A stretch of DNA of 46,291 nt. Source: Parcubacteria group bacterium GW2011_GWA2_47_26 (GTDB taxonomy: Bacteria; Patescibacteriota; Patescibacteriia; GWA2-47-26). The notes under the pieces are model-generated. The model was not told the DNA's origin. It ran no database searches and saw nothing but the letters and a program-made list of their open reading frames with translations. The translations under genes were made by a program, and so were the position numbers. Of the stretch, positions 2,281 to 43,594 are shown in pieces (within the stretch, counting starts at the first letter, position 1; every line of letters begins with the position of its first letter). The stretch is taken from positions 1-46,291 of the forward strand of contig LCOG01000003.1 in NCBI GenBank assembly GCA_001001705.1. Reading direction: 5' to 3'.

Positions 2281-3552
2281 CTAGAGACCGTTGCAAAACT
2301 CAATTTTCGTCATCCCCGCGAACGCGGGGATCCAGCAATACCAATAAATCGTGGATTCCCGCTTCCGCTGGAATGACAGCAGAGAATGATTTGGGAGTTT
2401 TGCAATGAGCTCAACTATGTGGTTATTCGTCAAGTAGCGGTCTTTTGAATGTAGCGGTCTTTTGATAAAAATTTTAACAAGAGCCGTGGCCTCTCTGCTA
2501 TTTTTTACCCAGCGCACACTTCCATCTCTCCTCATCCACGCCATCTGTCTCCGCACATAAGCATGTGTATTGTATTTAATACGCTGGGCAACCTCTTTTA
2601 GCACAGCCACTTTCTGCGTGCCCGAAACATTGCGCGGCAATTCAAAATACGGCTTCCATTCCCGATAACCTATACCGGTAAAAGCAGGCAGTTTCCACAC
2701 ACATCCTGTCATTACTAGCATACTAGCTAGTATGCTAGTTTTTTTATCATGTAGAGTTCTTCGCAGATGTTTGTATGTCTTATGGTATACCCTTTTAACT
2801 TCATCAAATAATCCTGCTCGCAACATCTTTTCTACCCGCGCATCAATTGCCGGATAAAGTTTTGCCCTCGGCACATCAACACCGATTTTTAGCACCTCAA
2901 AAAGCGGCTGGCCTTTTTTTCGCAATTTAGAAAACGGCTTGCCTGTGGCTAGGCACACCTCCAGCGCCCGAATAATCCGCCGTGGATTATCTTTTGGCAC
3001 AAACTGCTCCGCATCCAGATCAAGTTTTAAAAGCCGCTTGTACCACTTTTCTAAAACCCGCGATTCTTGCCTGCCCCGTACTGAACTTGTTCTAGTGCGG
3101 GGATTCTTGCCTGCCCCGTACTGAACTTGTTCTAGTGCGGGGATTCTTGATTCTTGCAACGCGCGTTCAAACTCCTCTCTTAATTTTTTATTCGGTGGCA
3201 CATTTGGAATATCTAAATTGTCCACAACTGCCTGAACCCATAAATTTGTTCCGCCTACTAAAATCGGAAGCTTCCCCCTCCTTAAAATATCTTGAATAAT
3301 TGCCAGCGCATCGCACTTAAAATCAGCCACATTGTATTCTTCCCACGGCTCCACAATATCAAGCAGATGATGAGGCGCTCCACTTGTATTCATCACCTTC
3401 CCGGTCCCGATATCCATACCTTTATAAATCTGCCGCGAATCCGCGCTGATGATTTCCCCATTAAACTTTTTTGTCAAATCAATAGCCAGATTACTTTTCC
3501 CCGATCCCGTCGGACCGACTATGACAATCAGTTTAGATAAGTCAAGTTTCAT
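2281..3552 (-). CDS. miaA: tRNA dimethylallyltransferase with repeat-derived inserts
   Basis: MiaA transfers a dimethylallyl group to N6 of A37 in tRNAs reading UNN codons. The start at MKLDLSKLIVIVG gives the P-loop GPTGSGKS, then SADSRQIYKGMDIGTGK and the GGTNLW motif, all diagnostic. At 423 residues it is longer than the usual ~300. The excess maps to repeats: a directly duplicated ~41-bp palindrome (about 3062-3145) encoding NPRTRTSSVRGRQ, a 26-bp perfect palindrome (2714-2739) encoding part of TSILASMLVM, and a C-terminal tail (FQRKREST...WIPAFAGMT) encoded by a widespread intergenic repeat. All keep the frame and the core motifs survive, so I expect a functional enzyme with added loops and tail. 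The ~11 upstream codons in the open frame (to 3585) are not part of the protein. Confidence 0.93.
   Translation of the reverse strand: MKLDLSKLIVIVGPTGSGKSNLAIDLTKKFNGEIISADSRQIYKGMDIGTGKVMNTSGAPHHLLDIVEPWEEYNVADFKCDALAIIQDILRRGKLPILVGGTNLWVQAVVDNLDIPNVPPNKKLREEFERALQESRIPALEQVQYGAGKNPRTRTSSVRGRQESRVLEKWYKRLLKLDLDAEQFVPKDNPRRIIRALEVCLATGKPFSKLRKKGQPLFEVLKIGVDVPRAKLYPAIDARVEKMLRAGLFDEVKRVYHKTYKHLRRTLHDKKTSILASMLVMTGCVWKLPAFTGIGYREWKPYFELPRNVSGTQKVAVLKEVAQRIKYNTHAYVRRQMAWMRRDGSVRWVKNSREATALVKIFIKRPLHSKDRYLTNNHIVELIAKLPNHSLLSFQRKRESTIYWYCWIPAFAGMTKIEFCNGL
2305..2382. repeat. WIPAFAGMT-type repeat forming the miaA 3' end
   Basis: The hairpin-prone repeat (CATCCCCGCGAACGCGGGG ... TTCCGCTGGAATGACAG) encodes FQRKRES...WIPAFAGMT on the minus strand, a peptide commonly seen when this repeat class reads through into genes. 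It replaces or extends the natural C-terminus of MiaA. Confidence 0.7.
2714..2739. repeat. 26-bp perfect palindrome inside miaA
   Basis: ACTAGCATACTAG is followed directly by its reverse complement, with a T-run after it on the plus strand. It lies inside the coding frame just before the conserved GIGYREW segment. Confidence 0.8.
3062..3145. repeat. Tandem duplicate of a ~41-bp palindromic repeat inside miaA
   Basis: Two consecutive copies of a unit containing CCCCGTACTGAACTTG and TTCTAGTGCGGGG (a hairpin with CCCCG/CGGGG ends). Related hairpins occur in pgk (16054-16149) and between tRNA genes (42979-43020). Confidence 0.85.
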
Positions 3553-3599
3553 AATATCCGCGACTTTATGATATACTTTGAGCATAGTATCTCGTCTTC

Positions 3600-9155: not shown

Positions 9156-9201
9156 AACTCGTCTTGCATTTAGCGCGATCGCGCTAAATGCAAGACGAGT
9201 T
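9156..9201. repeat. 46-bp perfect palindrome, left border
   Basis: All 23 base pairs match around the centre at 9178/9179. It lies 26 bp past the stop of the PaaX/Cas2-like gene and about 125 bp upstream of the WecA-like start. Confidence 0.97.
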
Positions 9202-9227
9202 GGAAAGCATATTTCGACGCCATCCAT

Positions 9228-9815
9228 TTACATCCTATTCACTTCTGCAAACTTACGCAAAAGTCGCGGGCTGCATTTTTTACAATCCGCTTCAATCAGC
9301 TCATAGTATTTTTCAATCCCCAAATACTGAAATAAGTTTGAAAGATGTGGTTCCGGATTATATGGCGAAACCCACACCGAAAGCTGCCACATACGAAAGC
9401 CGTTGACGCGCATGAGCTTTCGTAAAAAATCGCGATACTTTTTTTGAATCTCCGGCACATCAAACAGAATCAGCCGCCACTTCCGATCCCATGCTCGTTT
9501 TCTTTGTGCTTGCATATGCAATGCAAATTGCAGCCGCAATATTTCGTACTTGGCTTTCGTAGTCAGACGAACCAATCGCTCCTCTCCCTCCTTCTTCGTT
9601 TCAATATAATGCCTGCTCTTAAGATAATCAATGTGTTTACGAAGCTGTGCTTGTTCTTTCTTTGCTCGCCGGCGCCCTTTCTCGATAAAATAAGTGGGCT
9701 CATACTTTAAACTCGGATATAGTGGCCGATAAGACGCCAGTGCATCATCAATATCCCTGTAGGCCGCGAGAAGCTCAAGAAGCGTAATCTGTACTTTGGT
9801 CAATTTCGAGCCCAT
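9228..9815 (-). CDS. PaaX-like protein with winged-helix-like N-terminus and Cas2-like C-terminal domain
   Basis: The protein has 195 residues. About 1-90 look like a winged-helix DNA-binding region (LTKVQITLLELLAAY ... LRKHIDYLKSRHYIETKKEGEERLVRLT). About 110-185 resemble the ferredoxin-like Cas2/PaaX C-terminal fold: WRLILFDVPE, with the first-strand Asp that is catalytic in Cas2, then YRDFLRKLMRVNGFRMWQLS and VWVSPYN, then a helix and LIEAD. PaaX proteins regulate phenylacetate genes, but no such pathway is here and there is no CRISPR array, cas1 or effector. Flanking palindromes make an element-encoded nuclease or repeat-binding protein equally plausible. A second homologue is at 35320-35883. 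Confidence 0.8.
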   Translation of the reverse strand: MGSKLTKVQITLLELLAAYRDIDDALASYRPLYPSLKYEPTYFIEKGRRRAKKEQAQLRKHIDYLKSRHYIETKKEGEERLVRLTTKAKYEILRLQFALHMQAQRKRAWDRKWRLILFDVPEIQKKYRDFLRKLMRVNGFRMWQLSVWVSPYNPEPHLSNLFQYLGIEKYYELIEADCKKCSPRLLRKFAEVNRM

Positions 9816-9863
9816 AGCTATTTACGCAAAAATTATTACCATCCTAACTTTTAAACGTTTCCA

Positions 9864-9909
9864 ACTCGTCCCGCGATTGGCGCGATCGAGTCAAGTGCAG
9901 GACGAGTTA
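9864..9909. repeat. 46-bp degenerate palindrome, right border
   Basis: Same length and outer arms as the palindrome at 9156-9201; 17 of 23 arm positions still pair. It lies about 50 bp upstream of the PaaX/Cas2-like start and could act as operator or as the second end of an element. Confidence 0.9.
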
Positions 9910-14573: not shown

Positions 14574-15721
14574 AAACTCGTTATTGTGTTCCACGTCTCC
14601 CTCGCCGCCTTGTCCCAGCTAAATTCGCGAGCGCGTTCCTTGCCTTTACTAATCATTTCTTGTCGTAATTTTGTATTATGCAATACTTCCGCCATGCCTC
14701 GCGCAATATCCTCGCTGTTTTGAGAATCAACATAATAGGCTGCCTCGCCGCCAACCTCGTGTAGCGCCGGAATAGCTGAACATACGACCGGCACGCCCGC
14801 GGCCATGGCTTCCAAAACCGGCAAACCAAAACCTTCTCCAAATGACGGCAACATCAGCAGCGCCGCATTTTTAAGCAACTCAAAATATTGCTCCCGCGAA
14901 GTCCAGCCTAAGTGTAGCACATGATCTTGAAGTTTTAAAGTATTGATGGCGTGTAATATTTCATCTCCACCATAGCCAAGTTGGCCGGCAAGAATAAGCT
15001 TCAAATCGGATGTAACTCCTCCATTCGCCTGCAGCGAATCTCCCCCTCTTAAGGTAAGAGGGGGTTGGGGGGCGTTATCAATCAATCTCCTAAATGCCCG
15101 AATCAACCCAAGCACATTTTTCTTTTTCTCCAGGCGGCTGATGAATAAAATGAACCCAGAAAAAGGGGACAGACCCCTTTTTGAATCAAAAAGGGGTCTG
15201 TCCCCTTTTTCCACTCCATGCGGGATCACTGCAATTCTTTCTTCTTTAACTCCCACGTGTACTAAATCATCTCGCGTTGCTTTTGAGGGCACAATTATCT
15301 GCCTTGCGCCTTTTAACGCCATGTTCAAACTTCGTCGCTGTCGTTTTAGATCTGCGGCATCATAAAGATCCGGCTGCAACAAAAAAATCACATCGTGAAT
15401 AGTTACCACCGTATTTTTAGGATGAACAAATGGAATTGTATAAGCAGGGACGAAAAGAACGTCCGGCTTGTTAAACATCATCTCTAAAGACAACCGTCCC
15501 TGCGTCCAACCCCGTCCAATCCATTTAAGTACTTTCCACTCCCAATTCCCATTCTTCATTCTCCATTCTTCATTCTCCATTTGCGGCGTATACAATCTAA
15601 CTTTCCACCCCTCCGGCGTACATTTTTCCATGGCTCGTAATAAAAAATAAGAGTACCACTCTACTCCTGTTTTCTCTTTCTTTATCGCGCGTGAAGCATC
15701 AATTCCCAAAACCTTTGGCAT
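14492..15721 (-). CDS. GT4-family glycosyltransferase with repeat inserts
   Basis: The product has 409 residues. The N-terminal Rossmann half begins MPKVLGIDASRA. The C-terminal half has the GT-B signatures GFILFISRLEKKKN, LGWTSREQYFELLKNAALLMLPS and the E-x7-E motif FGEGFGLPVLEAMAAGVPVV that binds the nucleotide sugar. It would transfer a sugar from an activated donor at the cytoplasmic face. At least three repeats are in frame: a MENEEWRMKNGNWEW simple repeat (~15540-15585), a GDRPLFDSKRGLSPF palindrome (15160-15210) and a PQPPLTLRGGD hairpin (15040-15073); the C-terminal tail is also repeat-encoded. It overlaps the end of pgk by 23 bp, so it is co-transcribed. Confidence 0.88.
   Translation of the reverse strand: MPKVLGIDASRAIKKEKTGVEWYSYFLLRAMEKCTPEGWKVRLYTPQMENEEWRMKNGNWEWKVLKWIGRGWTQGRLSLEMMFNKPDVLFVPAYTIPFVHPKNTVVTIHDVIFLLQPDLYDAADLKRQRRSLNMALKGARQIIVPSKATRDDLVHVGVKEERIAVIPHGVEKGDRPLFDSKRGLSPFSGFILFISRLEKKKNVLGLIRAFRRLIDNAPQPPLTLRGGDSLQANGGVTSDLKLILAGQLGYGGDEILHAINTLKLQDHVLHLGWTSREQYFELLKNAALLMLPSFGEGFGLPVLEAMAAGVPVVCSAIPALHEVGGEAAYYVDSQNSEDIARGMAEVLHNTKLRQEMISKGKERAREFSWDKAARETWNTITSLCIPLEAAVAIVAGHDIYAKDQFIKYK
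15040..15073. repeat. PPLTLRGG-type hairpin inside the GT4 gene
   Basis: The arms CCCCCTCTT and AAGAGGGGG frame a short loop. Read on the minus strand it encodes PQPPLTLRGGD between conserved GT-B segments. Confidence 0.75.
15160..15210. repeat. 51-bp palindrome inside the GT4 gene
   Basis: AAAAAGGGGACAGACCCC and its reverse complement surround a 5-bp loop. The 51-bp length equals 17 codons, preserving the frame. A related shorter hairpin is at 19537-19566. Confidence 0.92.
15538..15588. repeat. CCATTCTTCATT simple repeat in the GT4 gene
   Basis: Imperfect repeats of CATTCTTCATTCTC encode the low-complexity MENEEWRMKNGNWEW stretch at about residues 48-62 of the glycosyltransferase. Confidence 0.7.
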
Positions 15722-22452: not shown

Positions 22453-22459
22453 AGGAGTG

Positions 22460-22515
22460 AAAAAAGGGACCACTTCTAAATTTTGCAAAGCAAAATTAGA
22501 GGCGGTCCCCTTTTT
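22460..22515. terminator. CTTCTAAATTTTG palindrome, convergent copy (bidirectional terminator)
   Basis: AAAAAAGGGACC-type left arm and GGTCCCCTTTTT right arm surround the paired CTTCTAAATTTTGC/GCAAAATTAGA inner stem. It lies between the convergent lipoprotein and giant genes, with A-run and T-run on opposite sides, so it could terminate both. Confidence 0.8.
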
Positions 22516-22534
22516 CAAAACGATCTCTTTTATC

Positions 22535-31879: not shown

Positions 31880-31900
31880 ACTGGATCACTTTTGGTTAGG

Positions 31901-31958
31901 AGAAAATAGGGACACTTCTAAATTTTGCTACGCAAAATTAGAGGCGTCCCTATTTTCT
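31901..31958. repeat. CTTCTAAATTTTG palindrome between the TSP3 and giant genes
   Basis: GAGAAAATAGGGAC and GTCCCTATTTTCTC arms with the CTTCTAAATTTTG/CAAAATTAGAG inner stem. Here the neighbours are co-directional, so it may attenuate transcription into the giant gene. Confidence 0.8.
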
Positions 31959-31983
31959 CACTAGAATGACAATACTTCATACA

Positions 31984-34278: not shown

Positions 34279-35295
34279 ATGCAACTCATTGACGGCCGCG
34301 CAATTGCTGACAAAATCCGCCAAGAAGTAAAAGAAGAAATTACACGGCTCGGGATTACCCCGGGTCTTGGTGTTATTTTGGTTGGCAACGATCCGGCCTC
34401 GTATCTCTATGTGTCGTTGAAACAAAAGGCCTGCCAAGAGGTCGGCATTAAATTTGAAAAATATGTGTTGCCAACGACTGATACGCACAAAGGTGTCATT
34501 CCGAGGCGCGCAGCCGAGGAATCCCGTGCTGACCAGAATAACGAGATTCTTCGCTACGCTCAGAATGACAATGTGTGTGGATGCGAACAGTGTATTATTA
34601 ATCTAATTAGAAATCTCAATGTGCGTCCTGACATTCACGGCATTCTTGTCCAGGTGCCGCTACCGCCGCCATATAACAAAAATAAAATAATCAGCACTCT
34701 GGAACCAGACAAAGACGTTGATGGATTTCACCAAGTTAATCTGCGCGCCACTTTGGAGGGAGAGGCGCGCATCATTCCGGGAGTGGCTTTGGGGGTTGAT
34801 GCGCTTATTGGCGAGACATTGCGAGTAAAAGGAGCCGCCTCTAATTTTACGGAGCAAAATTTAGAAGTGGGTCCTTTTGCTAACTCACTTACAAATAAAA
34901 AAGCGGTATTGCTCATGAACAGTACCACTTTTGCATTGCCAATTGAATATTTACTGGAGGGGCGCGGAGCACTTGTGCATATTATTTTACGCCCTAGCGA
35001 GATTACCCCCGAGATCATCGCACAATTAAAAACTGCGGATATTTTTGTCGTGGCAATAGGGCGGCCGCAGATCATTAAGGGCGACATGCTTAAAGACGGC
35101 GCAATTGTTATTGATGTCGGCACTAATCGTTTACCGGATGGGAAGCTCGTTGGTGATGTAGATTTTGAAACTACCCAAAACAAACCCGGCTTTATTACAC
35201 CCGTGCCCGGAGGAGTGGGCCCGATGACTGTAGCGATGCTACTACGGAATACTATAGAGCTTGCCAAGGCGCAATCGAAGGCGCAAACGCGCTAA
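34279..35295 (+). CDS. folD: FolD: methylene-THF dehydrogenase/cyclohydrolase with repeat inserts
   Basis: The product has 338 residues against the usual ~285. The start is MQLIDGRAIADKIRQEV; the catalytic region has SYLYVSLKQKACQEVGI (Tyr...Lys pair), ILVQVPLPP and PDKDVDGFH, and the C-terminus ends TPVPGGVGPMTVAMLLRNT, all typical. An ERSEGS repeat (34495-34570) encodes HKGVIPRRAAEESR...RYAQND, and a CTTCTAAATTTTG palindrome (34830-34877) encodes GAASNFTEQNLEVGPF. The usual dinucleotide-binding G-R-S-x-x-V-G-x-P reads MNSTTFALP here, so cofactor binding may be altered. It follows glyA in the same direction. Confidence 0.92.
   Translation: MQLIDGRAIADKIRQEVKEEITRLGITPGLGVILVGNDPASYLYVSLKQKACQEVGIKFEKYVLPTTDTHKGVIPRRAAEESRADQNNEILRYAQNDNVCGCEQCIINLIRNLNVRPDIHGILVQVPLPPPYNKNKIISTLEPDKDVDGFHQVNLRATLEGEARIIPGVALGVDALIGETLRVKGAASNFTEQNLEVGPFANSLTNKKAVLLMNSTTFALPIEYLLEGRGALVHIILRPSEITPEIIAQLKTADIFVVAIGRPQIIKGDMLKDGAIVIDVGTNRLPDGKLVGDVDFETTQNKPGFITPVPGGVGPMTVAMLLRNTIELAKAQSKAQTR
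34495..34570. repeat. ERSEGS-type repeat in folD
   Basis: GTCATTCCGAGGCG...CTCAGAATGACA; the insert is in frame between the substrate-binding helix and the QVPLPP loop. Confidence 0.9.
34830..34877. repeat. CTTCTAAATTTTG palindrome in folD
   Basis: Diverged copy: GGAGCCGCCTCTAATTTTAC and GCAAAATTTAGAAGTGGGTCC. It lies just before the Rossmann region of FolD, in frame. Confidence 0.85.
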
Positions 35296-35323
35296 TTCGT
35301 ATTGCCATGGCAATTTGAATTAG
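35292..35323. repeat. 32-bp palindrome overlapping the PaaX/Cas2-like stop
   Basis: 14 of 16 arm positions pair around CCATGG. It begins immediately before the folD stop codon (TAA at 35293-35295), so it touches both convergent genes' ends. Confidence 0.92.
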
Positions 35324-35883
35324 GGGTGAAGTTTAAAATGATAACATACCGCCTTTTCATGCAGGCCAAGGGAAGTCGCAAGTAAAAGTGAGACATGCTT
35401 CTCGATCTCATAAAACTTACAAACACGGCACAATTCCTCCTCGCACGGATATGGACACACAAAGATACTCTTCTGAATATGGTAAAATCCTAGTGCTTTT
35501 AAATGTTGGCGAAGGAACTCGCGGGAGACTTTTTTAACAGTTGGCACATCGAACGCAACTACCCGCCAGAGGCCATCCCATTTAACTGGCTTTTTGAGAT
35601 TCATTTGCCAAAGCTCTCCTCTCTCCAGTGCTGCCTTACCTTTTGGCGCAAGTTTTGCAATAATTCGCCCTTCATGATCCTCTCTTAGCGCAATCAGTTT
35701 CAAGCGCTGTAATCTTTTGAGTTGCTGACGTATATACCACATCTTATACTTTGCAAACCGTGTAAGTAGTTTTGGCGCCAATGGTCCGGCAAAGCCCGCG
35801 AGCGTGATCACAAGCACAGAATCCCGCAACGTTTCAAGAATTAGCTTTGTTAGTTCTCGTTTGTAAGGTTTTTTCTTGTTCAT
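35320..35883 (-). CDS. Second PaaX/Cas2-like protein
   Basis: The product has 187 residues from MNKKKPYKRELTKLILETLRDS; six further in-frame codons to a GTG are possible. N-terminal ~85 residues form a winged-helix-like region (YIRQQLKRLQRLKLIALREDHEGRI). The C-terminal domain shows the Cas2/PaaX-type pattern WDGLWRVVAFDVP (Asp at the end of strand 1), SREFLRQHLKALGFYHIQKSIFVCPY and two C-x-x-C-like cysteines in EEELCRVCKFYEI. It is only distantly similar to the protein at 9228-9815 but has the same domain order. No CRISPR components are nearby. Binding or nicking the flanking palindromes is an attractive, unproven role. Confidence 0.8.
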   Translation of the reverse strand: MNKKKPYKRELTKLILETLRDSVLVITLAGFAGPLAPKLLTRFAKYKMWYIRQQLKRLQRLKLIALREDHEGRIIAKLAPKGKAALERGELWQMNLKKPVKWDGLWRVVAFDVPTVKKVSREFLRQHLKALGFYHIQKSIFVCPYPCEEELCRVCKFYEIEKHVSLLLATSLGLHEKAVCYHFKLHP

Positions 35884-35947
35884 ATATATTACCAGCGCCA
35901 CGCATCAGCAGGCTATGACAGGACTTTAGCCACAGGTAGTCCACAAT

Positions 35948-35995
35948 CATCATAGCTAATTCGTATTGCCATGGCAATACGAATTAGCTATGATG
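35948..35995. repeat. 48-bp perfect palindrome upstream of the PaaX/Cas2-like gene
   Basis: All 24 arm positions pair around the centre at 35971/35972 (CCATGG). It lies 64 bp upstream of the ATG. Confidence 0.97.
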
Positions 35996-36062: not shown

Positions 36063-37226
36063 TTAAAGCAGGCCCGCTAATTTTTGAATGACGCCGACCA
36101 GTAGCAGAGCAATCATCGCGAGGCCAAGAATGGTTTTTAGATTACGGCTGCGAACATGTTTCCGTTTAAAAAACGCCAACGCGACTAAAATAATCATAAT
36201 TGCATCAAACCCACCAAAGACACTGCCTACAATATCAATGACTTGCACAAAATTACGCGCTCCGGCCAGGAAAAGAAAAAATGGAACCCAGACCGCGAAA
36301 ATCCAGGCCGGTATAGCCTTGACTCTAAAATCATAGGCAAAAGTTTCCTTAAGGTACAGCGCGACAACCAAATAAGAAGTGACTACCGCAAAAAAGCCAA
36401 AGAGCGCGCCAAGCCAGATTATATTGCTACCGAGCGTGCTTCTTAACCCTTCAAAAGCTTCTTCAGTAGTTGCCGTGCCAGAAATACCTACGACGACTAG
36501 AGCAAAAAGTAAGGTAATTATTACTGGTACGATAGTCCCGACAATAATGCTGCCACGCATAACAAAAAGGGAACGTTTCTCTTTTTTCCGAAAAAAGAGA
36601 AACGTTCCCTTTTTGTTGACCATATCCCACATCTCCGGGATTGCCGCGGCGCCACTTAAAGCAAAAAGTATAATGCCATAAGGAAAAAATAATCCCGCAC
36701 CTGTGCCAGCGCCAATCAAATTGCTGGCTTCAATATGGGGAACGCCTAAAACAAGAATCACCGCTATAATCGCAAGCAGAAGCCAAGTCATCCAAAATTC
36801 AACCCGATCAAAAATACGCAAGCCTAAAAAGGTTATAGTAGCCACAAAGCCGAATAATAAAATTGTATAAAAGAAGCTACTGCTCCCATTGCCGCCTTGG
36901 AAGAGTATTTTTAAAAACGTTCCTCCAACCAACATGTAGGCTACTTGCGCGCCCCAAAAACTTAGGGTTTGAGAAATGGTAACAATTTTTTTTGCCGAAT
37001 GACCGAGATAGCGATCCGCATAGCCAACTAGACGATGCTTGCCCGGCGTTCCCGCTACTACTTCGCCAAAATACAGATTAATCAGAAGTGAAACTGCGCC
37101 TAAAAGCACAATCCAAAAAAGTCCAATGCCAAATCCGGCCCGCGCTGAAACATAAGGCACGGCAAAAAGCCCAACACCAATAATCATGCCCATTAAAATG
37201 ATTGTACCGTGTAAAAATTGCCGCAT
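36063..37226 (-). CDS. Amino-acid permease (aromatic/HAAAP-like)
   Basis: The product has 387 residues and about eleven hydrophobic helices. The start HGTIILMGMIIGVGLFAVPYVSARAG matches the first-helix G-x-x-I-G-x-G-x-x-x-(I/L)-P region of APC-superfamily amino-acid transporters, especially the tryptophan/tyrosine permease group. A 57-bp perfect palindrome (36561-36617) inserts the charged peptide NKKGTFLFFRKKEKRSLFV between helices, probably as a cytoplasmic loop, in frame. The substrate cannot be read. Amino-acid uptake would suit an organism with few biosynthetic genes. No operon partner is visible. Confidence 0.8.
   Translation of the reverse strand: MRQFLHGTIILMGMIIGVGLFAVPYVSARAGFGIGLFWIVLLGAVSLLINLYFGEVVAGTPGKHRLVGYADRYLGHSAKKIVTISQTLSFWGAQVAYMLVGGTFLKILFQGGNGSSSFFYTILLFGFVATITFLGLRIFDRVEFWMTWLLLAIIAVILVLGVPHIEASNLIGAGTGAGLFFPYGIILFALSGAAAIPEMWDMVNKKGTFLFFRKKEKRSLFVMRGSIIVGTIVPVIITLLFALVVVGISGTATTEEAFEGLRSTLGSNIIWLGALFGFFAVVTSYLVVALYLKETFAYDFRVKAIPAWIFAVWVPFFLFLAGARNFVQVIDIVGSVFGGFDAIMIILVALAFFKRKHVRSRNLKTILGLAMIALLLVGVIQKLAGLL
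36561..36617. repeat. 57-bp perfect palindrome inside the permease gene
   Basis: Two 27-bp arms (starting AACAAAAAGGGAACG) with a CCG loop; 57 bp equals 19 codons. The partial sequence AAAAAGGGAACGTTTCTC also occurs after glyA at ~34228. Confidence 0.95.
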
Positions 37227-38905: not shown

Positions 38906-39505
38906 ATGAATTTTCCTCCTCCAATAACACGCTTAATCCAGCACTTTCGGGGTTTGCCGGGCGTAGGTCCGCGCACCGCCACGCGTTTTGTTTTTGCATT
39001 GCTTAATAAATCCGAAGACGAGCTGCGCGCTTTTGGCCATACTCTTGTAGATTTTAAACACAGCATCCGCACCTGCAAAGAATGCTTTAATATTTCCCTG
39101 CAAGACCCCTGCGAAATTTGCAGTAACCAAAAACGCGAACGTACTCTTCTTTGCATTGTTGCGCGCCCCCAGGACATTCAAGCTATTGAAGAAACGCGTG
39201 AATATAACGGCCTATATCACGTCTTGGGCGGAGTTTTGAATCCGATTGACGGCGTAACGCCCGAGCAATTAAGAATCAAGGAGTTGCTTACGCGACTTGA
39301 GGGGGAACAAAAATTTCAAGAGATCATACTGGCGCTGAACCTAGATATTGAAGGTGAGGCGACCGCGCTGTATTTGGCAAAGCTGCTTAAATCACGCGTG
39401 CCAAAAGTAACGCGGTTGGCGCGCGGTTTGCCTCAAGGCGCTGATCTTGAGTATGCTGACGAGGTTACGCTTATAAACGCCTTGAAAGGCAGACGCGATA
39501 TTTAA
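38906..39505 (+). CDS. recR: Recombination protein RecR
   Basis: The product has 199 residues, the normal length. The N-terminal helix-hairpin-helix has LPGVGPRTATRF; the four-Cys zinc finger is CKECFNISLQDPCEIC (about residues 58-73); the Toprim domain begins LLCIVARPQDIQAIEETREYNGLYHVLGG; and the C-terminal Walker B-like part includes VTRLARGLPQGADLEYAD. RecR works with RecO/RecF to load RecA on gapped DNA. The ATG is directly preceded by TAACGGG of the repeat, with no Shine-Dalgarno, so its translation start context has been supplied by the repeat. Confidence 0.96.
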   Translation: MNFPPPITRLIQHFRGLPGVGPRTATRFVFALLNKSEDELRAFGHTLVDFKHSIRTCKECFNISLQDPCEICSNQKRERTLLCIVARPQDIQAIEETREYNGLYHVLGGVLNPIDGVTPEQLRIKELLTRLEGEQKFQEIILALNLDIEGEATALYLAKLLKSRVPKVTRLARGLPQGADLEYADEVTLINALKGRRDI

Positions 39506-39510
39506 AAAGA

Positions 39511-39565
39511 AAAAAAGAGAACACTTCTAAATTTTGTAAGCAAAATTAGATGCGTTCTCTTTTTT
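39511..39565. terminator. CTTCTAAATTTTG palindrome at the recR/rplU convergent junction
   Basis: AAAAAAGAGAACACTTCTAAATT and its pairing arm ending CGTTCTCTTTTTT lie between two convergent genes and have opposite A/T runs, so they can serve both directions. Confidence 0.8.
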
Positions 39566-39582
39566 CTATTGTAACGCGAATG

Positions 39583-39969: not shown

Positions 39970-42314
39970 GTGGCTATTGCCGGGGCTTTTATCGCCTCCT
40001 CTAATTTAAGCGACAGGATTTTGGAAATGCCCTCGGCCGCCATGGTAACGCCGTAAAGCACTTGCGCGACGTGCATGGTCGCACGATTATGCGTTATAAC
40101 AATAAATTGGGTGCGGTTGCTTAACTCTTGAAGTATTGAAGCGAAACGCGCCGAGTTAGATTCGTCAAGAGCGGCGTCAACTTCATCAAGCACTACAAAC
40201 GGCGGCGGATTTAACGCAAGAATCGCCGACAAAAGCGCGATCGAGGTCATGGCGCGCTCTCCGCCAGAAAGCATGGCGATTGATTTGAGTTTTTTGCCGG
40301 GCGGAGTCGCGGAAATTTCCACGCCGCGGTAGGTATTATTTTTAGTGAATTTGTCTAGAAGCGACGGCCGCTCTGCTTGTCTGGATCCAGCTAGCGGGGA
40401 CGCTTCTAAATTTTGTTGCACAAAATTAGAAGCGTCCCCTTTCTCGCTTGCCGTCTCTGACTCCTTGGCAATGATCTTTGAAAGCTTGGCCTGTCCGCCG
40501 CCAAAAAGAATTTTGAAATAATTGCCAAACTCTTCATTGATTTTATCAAAGGCTGTTTCAAACTGGATTTTTATTGTTTGGTCAAGTTCTTCAAGCAAGG
40601 TTACCAATGATTTCAAAGAATTCTCTAAATCCCCTATTTGGCTGGCTAAAAATTCGTACCGTTCGCTGACTTCTTTATATTCCTTAACGACCTCGGCATC
40701 CACTCCGCCAATTGCTTCAAGCTGGCGTTTTAAGCGCTGAATTTCAGGCAAGATAGTCTGGGGATCGGCGGAACGCGATTCTTCATGATCCAGACCTTGG
40801 CGGGATTCGTTTAAAACGGCCAGATAGTTCTCCCCCATCTCCTGTTGAGCTTCAGCTTTCAAGGTTTCATAACGCGTTTCGATTTTGGCAATTTCGATTT
40901 TGGCGTTGTTCAAGTCTGCTTCGAGCGCGTGCACTTCCGACTGCTTGGCAGACAACTTTCTCTGTATATCAAAAAAGGATTGCTTTTTTTCTTCAGCCAG
41001 CCGGCCAACTCTTTGCAATTCCAGACGCAGCTTTTCAAGCTCTTGATCAATTGTGTTAAGATTGGCCACAATAGCGTCCAACTCTTTTGTAATTGCCGTA
41101 GCGCTTGCGGGAGCCTTTTCACCTTTAAGGCGGGCGAGGAGATCGGAAACAGTAGTATAGAGTGTGCGAAGATTACTTTTTATGTCATCCTGAGTTAACG
41201 TAGCGAGCGAAGGATTTCCTAAGGATGCGGAGCGCGTATTCATGCGAGATTCTTCGCTACGCTCAGAATGACGAAGCAAAACGTCGAGTTCCGTGCGCAC
41301 CCCTTCCAATATCTGCGCTATCTCATATACTGGCACGGACACAGCTTCTTTTTTAGTCTCTAGGAGCTTGCGCTTGAGGTCAAATTCTTTTTCGCGCATT
41401 TTTTCTTTGCGCGCGATAAGCGCCGAATACTCATCCTGGATCTTTAAAAGTTCTGCAGGCTTGGTTTCGCTTTTTTCCAGTACGCGCATCTCTAATTCAA
41501 TTGTTTTAAGCTCGGCGGTCTTTGAATCCAGTTTTGATTGCGCTTGTTCCATTTTATCGCGCCATGTTTTTGCTTCAGTTTCACCGCTTTGCAATAGGCG
41601 ACCGTAATACTGGATTTGTAAACTGCGCAGGTCCCGTTCAATATCGCCGCGCTGCTCTAGGCGGCGCACTTGACGGGTAAGCGATTTAAGACGCGGCGTA
41701 ATTTCTTCTTCTAGCATACGCGCCTGATATAGATTCTCCTCGGTCGCGGCTAGCTTTTTCAAAGCTTGCTCTTTTTTTAATTGCAGGGGGCGGACCCCTG
41801 TTGCTTCATCAAAAAAAACTTTGCGCTCCTCGGGCGAGGCAATTAAAATCTGATCAATCTGGCCTTGTCCGATTACGCTATACCCTTCTTTGCCAAACGC
41901 GGCTTTGGCCAAAAGCATTTGGATATCCATTAAACGCGTGGTCTTCCCATTTAAAAGATACTCGGACTCGCCATCGCGATAAAGCCGGCGCGTAATTGTT
42001 ACTTCTGCAATATCAAGCGGAATCCGGCCGTCTTCATTATTGACGGTTAATTGCACCTCGGACAGGCCGGCTCGCGCTCTTCGGGCTGATCCGCTAAAGA
42101 TAATGTCTTCGGATTTTTTTCCTCGGATCGCTTTGATGCTCTGTTCGCCCAAAACCCAACGTACGGCATCGGCGATGTTTGACTTTCCAGAACCATTTGG
42201 GCCAACAATAGCGGTGAGTGTAAGTTGCCCAGAAGCATCGGGAGAAGAAAATAAGAGCGTGGTCTTATCAGCAAAAGATTTAAAACCTTGGAGCTGGATT
42301 TGTTTGAGATACAT
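39966..42314 (-). CDS. smc: Short SMC protein without recognisable hinge
   Basis: The product has 782 residues against ~1,150-1,200 for canonical SMC. The N-terminal head has Walker A VGPNGSGKSNIADAVRWVLG and FGKEGYSVIGQGQIDQIL; the C-terminal head has the ABC signature LSGGERAMTSIALLSA, Walker B PPFVVLDEVDAALDESN and the D-loop. Between them lie two coiled-coil blocks (about 170-330 and 380-560). The Gly-rich hinge is not visible; the centre instead holds a linker and an ERSEGS repeat. A CTTCTAAATTTTG palindrome (40396-40439) inserts KGDASNFVQQNLEASP near the second head. It should fold chromosomes or act in repair. Confidence 0.9.
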   Translation of the reverse strand: MYLKQIQLQGFKSFADKTTLLFSSPDASGQLTLTAIVGPNGSGKSNIADAVRWVLGEQSIKAIRGKKSEDIIFSGSARRARAGLSEVQLTVNNEDGRIPLDIAEVTITRRLYRDGESEYLLNGKTTRLMDIQMLLAKAAFGKEGYSVIGQGQIDQILIASPEERKVFFDEATGVRPLQLKKEQALKKLAATEENLYQARMLEEEITPRLKSLTRQVRRLEQRGDIERDLRSLQIQYYGRLLQSGETEAKTWRDKMEQAQSKLDSKTAELKTIELEMRVLEKSETKPAELLKIQDEYSALIARKEKMREKEFDLKRKLLETKKEAVSVPVYEIAQILEGVRTELDVLLRHSERSEESRMNTRSASLGNPSLATLTQDDIKSNLRTLYTTVSDLLARLKGEKAPASATAITKELDAIVANLNTIDQELEKLRLELQRVGRLAEEKKQSFFDIQRKLSAKQSEVHALEADLNNAKIEIAKIETRYETLKAEAQQEMGENYLAVLNESRQGLDHEESRSADPQTILPEIQRLKRQLEAIGGVDAEVVKEYKEVSERYEFLASQIGDLENSLKSLVTLLEELDQTIKIQFETAFDKINEEFGNYFKILFGGGQAKLSKIIAKESETASEKGDASNFVQQNLEASPLAGSRQAERPSLLDKFTKNNTYRGVEISATPPGKKLKSIAMLSGGERAMTSIALLSAILALNPPPFVVLDEVDAALDESNSARFASILQELSNRTQFIVITHNRATMHVAQVLYGVTMAAEGISKILSLKLEEAIKAPAIAT
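40396..40439. repeat. CTTCTAAATTTTG palindrome in smc
   Basis: GGGGACGCTTCTAAATTTTG and its exact reverse complement flank a short loop. Read on the minus strand it encodes GDASNFVQQNLEASP. Confidence 0.92.
41184..41272. repeat. ERSEGS-type repeat in smc
   Basis: GTCATCCTGAGTT...GCTCAGAATGAC; encodes RHSERSEESRMNTRSASLG in the middle of the protein, where a hinge would normally lie. Confidence 0.9.
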
Positions 42315-43540: not shown

Positions 43541-43594
43541 AAAAAGGGACCACTTCTAAATTTTGCTGCGCAAAATTAGAGGCGGTCCCTTTTT
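43541..43594. terminator. CTTCTAAATTTTG palindrome between tRNA genes (+) and 16S (-)
   Basis: AAAAAGGGACC and GGTCCCTTTTT arms with the family's inner stem. It lies at a convergent junction, as at 22460 and 39511. Confidence 0.8.

Follow-up and report, generated by a model that had tools for sequence, protein, structure and literature searches.

In a 46,291-nucleotide stretch of DNA from Parcubacteria group bacterium GW2011_GWA2_47_26 (here called the window), a gene for a PaaX/Cas2-like protein lies between two palindromes of common centre. Why should such a gene be bracketed in this way, and do gene and palindromes form a unit of a known kind? We compared the locus with the rest of its genome (G000; 842 kb in 26 contigs, an assembly 80% complete, of which 778 kb were scanned for palindromes) and with other genomes of the phylum.

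The first-pass annotation had described the gene as lying between a 32-bp imperfect and a 48-bp perfect palindrome with a common centre. Its coordinates agree with ours (Table 1), as does the sequence common to both palindromes, CTAATTCGTATTGCCATGGCAAT. The right palindrome consists of two 24-bp arms, 100% complementary and without a loop, and the left palindrome of overlapping 18-bp arms that are 89% complementary. The stop codon of the gene (TTA on the forward strand, 35320–35322) falls within the left palindrome, as had been reported, and the folD stop codon (TAA, 35293–35295) falls there too. The gene (P0001) encodes a protein of ~187–193 residues. The true start of P0001 is probably the ATG at 35883 rather than the GTG at 35901, because in the orthologue alignment the protein of G001, a genome of another genus, begins there. 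A Trp/Tyr permease gene lies on the side away from folD, and the gene order glyA-folD-unit-permease is identical in G001. The permease reading frame holds a perfect palindrome of its own (36561–36617; 28-bp arms, 1-nt centre), and another lies at 15159–15211.

Table 1. Features of the two gene-palindrome units in the window.
Feature	Position	Strand	Remarks
Palindrome of other unit (gene 3' side)	9156..9201		46 bp perfect, centre GCGATCGC
PaaX_M gene P0002	9228..9815	-	profile match; orthologues 90.6% (G002) and 86% (G001) identical
Palindrome of other unit (gene 5' side)	9863..9908		imperfect, same palindrome family as 9156..9201
folD	34279..35295	+	Pfam THF_DHG_CYH; convergent host gene, TAA within left palindrome
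Left palindrome (gene 3' side)	35292..35323		32 bp imperfect, centre GCCATGGC; both convergent stop codons inside
PaaX_M gene P0001 (wHTH + Cas2-fold)	35320..35901	-	Pfam PF20803 E=1.8e-20, CRISPR_Cas2 E=3.3e-5
Right palindrome (gene 5' side)	35948..35995		48 bp perfect, zero loop

The other unit that the annotation had noted within the 46 kb, at 9156–9908, has the same layout. Its protein, P0002, is 31% identical to P0001 over 130 residues. P0001 has an orthologue at the equivalent place in G001 (74% identical), and P0002 has one at the equivalent place in G002, again another genus (90.6% identical). P0002 is better conserved than the neighbours compared and P0001 better than three of four; dN/dS is ~0.05–0.09 for P0002, and for P0001 dS is saturated and dN is 0.20. 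Judged from their sequences, PaaX_M proteins are under purifying selection. The shared places across genera, the conservation and the dN/dS values therefore indicate that the window units are old, selected and rarely moving; because both are vertically inherited across genera, movement of a whole unit must be rare.

PaaX_M genes are present in 90 of 287 genomes of the phylum, in 1–11 copies each (gene calls are mechanical ORFs, and some long PaaX_M lengths are over-called ORFs). We counted a matched flanking pair at a score of at least 43, a score that selects for symmetry; the background in 309 ORFs of G000 has a median of 35 and a 95th percentile of 39. All five PaaX_M genes of G000 have a matched pair (scores 47–60). 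Across many Patescibacteria genera, 56 of 79 PaaX_M genes (related loci among them not being independent) are flanked by matched palindromes of 30–48 bp, compared with 7 of 306 size-matched G000 ORFs without PaaX_M, one of which is a TrpR-like gene. The family of gene-palindrome units proposed by the first-pass annotation is thus well supported for G000, for other genera and for the phylum at large, and the finding that it named as a refutation, similar palindromes next to random genes, is not borne out. Chance is indeed an unlikely explanation: zero-loop palindromes scoring at least 12 number 51 in the real genome and 0 in three Markov-1 genome simulations. The upstream palindrome is centred a median of 67 bp from the start codon, and in 16 of the 56 paired genes the downstream palindrome lies within 25 bp of the stop codon. 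Long PaaX_M proteins (about 236–260 residues) mostly have no palindrome pair and the two tested (L144, L160) contain PaaX_C, so they serve as an internal control, with the exception that a symmetric CGATCG or CGGCCG site lies on at least one side in 5 of the 12 long genes.

Outside the window (G000:C2:44671–45387), palindromes of a matched family, ACTAGCATACTAGCTAGTATGCTAGT, also lie on both sides of a gene resembling the Trp repressor (PF01371). A copy of this family lies in the window at 2714–2739, in frame inside miaA; the miaA gene of G002 has no such insert. The C-terminal part of miaA (window 2281–3585) also contains SFQRKREST...WIPAFAGMT-like residues and low-complexity inserts, apparently translated repeats.

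The AF2 model of P0001, a confident one (pLDDT 91.5), has E. coli PaaX (8a39; E=8e-5) as its top PDB fold match, and Cas2 structures rank further down. Four residues, D118, R127, F139 and S145, do not vary among 40 proteins. In Cas2, the Asp that corresponds to D118 (Asp8/Asp10) is required for nuclease activity in the members tested (PMC9510766). By sequence comparison, D118 is the Cas2 catalytic Asp at the end of strand 1, kept in PaaX_M proteins as part of a predicted nuclease site. DNA cleavage is not universal among Cas2 folds. The conserved Asp co-occurs with a conserved site centre; neither is found in E. coli, where PaaX lacks an equivalent Asp motif and the operator published for it lacks such a centre.

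The centre is CGATCG in 66, CGGCCG in 17 and CCATGG in 6 of ~112 sites. To avoid the symmetry-selecting pair score, arm pairing was profiled at CGATCG/CGGCCG sites beside short PaaX_M genes with the arms unselected. Pairing is 75% at position 4, 44–60% at positions 7–10 and 74–82% at positions 13–16 (25–45% for shuffled arm partners), and base identity at positions 13–16 varies freely between units. Between left and right copies, the per-side rate of change is 2% for central, 22% for middle and 15% for outer positions. From these patterns we infer that the centre is a conserved contact, that the outer half-sites are specific to each unit and that the middle is under loose constraint. The claim that each unit has its own palindrome sequence therefore applies to the arms; the centre is common to most units. 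The suggested coevolution of protein and palindrome is detectable (Mantel r = 0.22, reached in 0 of 2000 permutations) but weak in the arms.

Within palindrome families, substitutions occur symmetrically in both arms, and left and right copies differ symmetrically even at the free middle positions (e.g. L146, L153, K3). Dimer binding alone is insufficient to account for symmetric changes at free positions; arm-templated copying of a fold-back at the birth of a palindrome explains them, and quasi-palindrome correction during replication could contribute. Where flanking copies are asymmetric, 18 are direct and 1 is inverted. Arm mismatches on the sense strand (54 GT, 76 AC, 219 other) have no G-U bias.

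Palindromes of the unit families also occur as solo copies, a feature absent from the first-pass annotation, as are the empty sites described below and the retained Cas2 Asp; the layout and the family that it described are upheld. Solo palindromes are exact 34–36-bp copies with unrelated flanks, and copy numbers are small (3–8 per palindrome family). In G000, families F1 (CGCGCAAAATCCTACGATCGTAGGATTTTGCGCG), F2, F3 and F4 have copies away from the PaaX_M genes; counting flanking copies, F1 has 6, F2 has 5 and F4 has 3. On the same count, family K1 of G002 has 8 copies, of which 7 agree in every base over exactly 36 bp; most have unrelated flanks, and two share a right flank. For some G000 palindrome families no gene was found in the 778 kb scanned of this 80% complete assembly. 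Zero-loop palindromes scoring at least 15 number 31 per 778 kb in G000 and 33 per 799 kb in G002, both of which have PaaX_M, versus 0 in 380, 2 in 200 and 1 in 95 kb of three PaaX_M-free relatives (3 in 675 kb), densities of ~40 and ~4 per Mb, respectively.

Most solo palindromes fall between genes that converge or run in tandem; some are inside ORFs, and few are in divergent promoter regions. We saw no orthologous position at which G000 and G002 both carry a solo of one family, and near one gene end common to the two genomes the palindromes belong to different families. Whole units also differ in presence: a G002 palindrome-gene-palindrome unit separates comEC, whose stop codon its palindrome provides, from an MBL-fold gene, and these two genes abut in G000; in G242 a unit lies between rnhB and tRNA-Ser at a place where the congeneric G318 (flanks ~75% identical) has none. 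No target-site duplication was recognised. At G002:C6:44041–50775, five K1 palindromes within 6.7 kb delimit several genes around a PaaX_M gene, rather like a row of cassettes.

Among known systems, REP/RAYT offers a close parallel in layout: a distinctive, vertically inherited gene lies between two palindromes, with solo relatives in extragenic DNA (PMC2817692, PMC3116915). The gene flanked by two palindromes and the solo copies elsewhere are both present here, and a single genome holds several distinct families of gene and palindrome, as it does in REP/RAYT (PMC2817692, PMC3116915). However, P0001 and P0002 match PaaX_M and Cas2 and lack the Y1 (HUH) domain PF01797; the palindromes are zero-loop and 30–48 bp long; asymmetric flanking copies are direct (18:1), whereas the REPs of RAYTs are inverted; the gene evolves more slowly than most neighbours, whereas rayt genes evolve faster; and solo copies are few. 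Because they have no Y1 domain, direct copies and slow evolution, the units are not members of REP/RAYT; they would work like it without homology to it. A single Y1/RAYT-type transposase was found in G000, elsewhere in the genome (C5:68001–68600), with looped hairpins GTGGCTAGGCCAC/GTGACCAAGTCAC close by or overlapping its ends (68087–68130 and 68570–68604 on C5). Hairpins of a separate repeat family, TTCTAAATTTTGC...GCAAAATTAGA, which have a loop and in most cases outer arms resembling GGGAC/GTCCC, are dispersed over many places in the genome, including window positions 22458–22517, 31900–31959, 39502–39574, 40396–40439 and 43541–43594.

PaaX (TIGR02277) shares with these proteins the winged helix-turn-helix, the Cas2-like core and the overall fold, and its E. 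coli inverted-repeat binding site spans ~39 bp; the E. coli operator, TGATTC(N27)GAATCA (PMC9493321), has a spacing similar to that of the outer half-sites here. Yet P0001 and P0002 score 22 and 32 bits against a TIGR02277 cut-off of 264.55, they keep the Cas2 Asp motif, and the phenylacetate context is absent. PaaX_C (PF08223) has no match in P0001 or P0002 (E up to 1) or in L014 or L152 (E up to 0.1). An identity as an ordinary PaaX transcription factor was rejected on the missing PaaX_C of the short proteins tested and the missing Asp motif of E. coli PaaX. With Cas2 the proteins share a ferredoxin-fold domain, the catalytic Asp, a QxS(V/I)(W/F) motif and weak HMM matches, but they are fused to a winged helix. 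Cas1 (PF01867) was not found in six genomes tested, including G000, which rules out a part in CRISPR-Cas adaptation. Ordinary terminators are ruled out by the zero loop, the conserved CGATCG centre and the absence of a T run, and a terminal-inverted-repeat transposon by the direct asymmetric copies and the lack of a visible target duplication. Carriage by phage was rejected on the absence of relatives of P0001 and P0002 from viral contigs in a search for close relatives. Since the units disagree with each known family tested in at least one defining feature, they would fall outside known kinds; as repressors they would be only a variant within one. Our literature search found no paper connecting PaaX/Cas2-like genes with palindromes and no described role for such genes in Patescibacteria.

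The bracketed genes, the scattered solos and the recurrence in the phylum together suggest an undescribed self-spreading (or self-regulating) DNA unit. From the analysis as a whole, we put at even odds the reading that the PaaX_M unit is a palindrome-spreading or palindrome-processing element, REP/RAYT-like, in which a Cas2-fold protein replaces the HUH transposase. Slightly short of even is the chance that the units constitute a class of minimal mobile element whose Cas2-fold protein, acting without Cas1, would recognise and spread perfect palindromes that also bracket its own gene. We infer that binding, cleavage and spread of the palindromes are the work of the PaaX_M protein and not of another enzyme. 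A unit would comprise a single gene, whose winged-helix/Cas2-fold product binds the palindrome, and on each side a copy of the site that this protein binds or processes. The winged helices of a homodimer would read the outer half-sites (~12–17 bp from the centre), placing the Cas2-like pair of active sites over the conserved centre (CGATCG, CGGCCG or CCATGG). Cutting at the centre, or processing of a folded-back form, would lead to copying or movement of the 34–36-bp palindrome; solo palindromes would be left at gene ends, and the whole unit would move only rarely. Against this reading count the vertical inheritance of both window units, the lack of a recognised target-site duplication, the small copy numbers, the G000 palindrome families for which the 778 kb yielded no gene, and the existence of Cas2 folds that do not cleave DNA.

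The main rival, possible but doubtful in our estimate, is an autoregulating PaaX-type repressor, for which the upstream palindrome would be the operator, the downstream one a roadblock or insulator, and the solos further regulon or decoy sites. E. coli PaaX, the best structural match of the P0001 model, acts as a repressor at its own promoter, and the inverted repeat to which it binds has N27 spacing (PMC9493321), near the strongly paired outer positions 12–18 here, so that the outer half-sites fit a repressor equally well; the upstream distance from the start codon and the purifying selection on the proteins are also consistent with one. However, an operator would hardly be expected to have a further copy downstream of the gene, in many cases at the stop codon, and most solos lie within genes or between convergent or tandem ones, with none found at orthologous places. 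The effector domain PaaX_C is undetected in the short proteins tested and present in two long relatives, which as a group mostly lack palindromes. A repressor also leaves unexplained the symmetric changes at free middle positions and the presence of a Cas2 Asp, which is missing from E. coli PaaX.

It is improbable that another enzyme, such as the single Y1/RAYT transposase encoded in G000, or replication slippage spreads the palindromes and that the PaaX/Cas2-like protein only binds them. Template switching perfects quasi-palindromes, but the hairpins near the G000 transposase are looped, unlike the zero-loop families, the palindrome pair goes with PaaX_M genes in genome after genome, and PaaX_M-free genomes have few zero-loop palindromes. 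Least probable is an RNA-level function, in which the encoded Cas2-like RNase would regulate its own mRNA by cleaving transcript hairpins, in the manner of CRISPR repeat processing: the direct orientation of asymmetric copies would suit it and some Cas2 proteins are RNases (PMC9510766), but the lack of G-U bias, the zero loops, the solos between convergent genes and a central CGATCG more conserved than hairpin stability requires argue against it.

If the proteins are repressors instead, they would represent a phylum-wide regulator with sites bracketing its own gene. If PaaX/Cas2-like genes drive the spread of palindromes, Cas2 folds would gain a DNA-mobilising or palindrome-processing function outside CRISPR. 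That would bear on the origin of Cas2, as a candidate glimpse of the roles of its fold outside CRISPR, and would mean that one of the largest radiations of bacteria has a type of mobile DNA peculiar to it.
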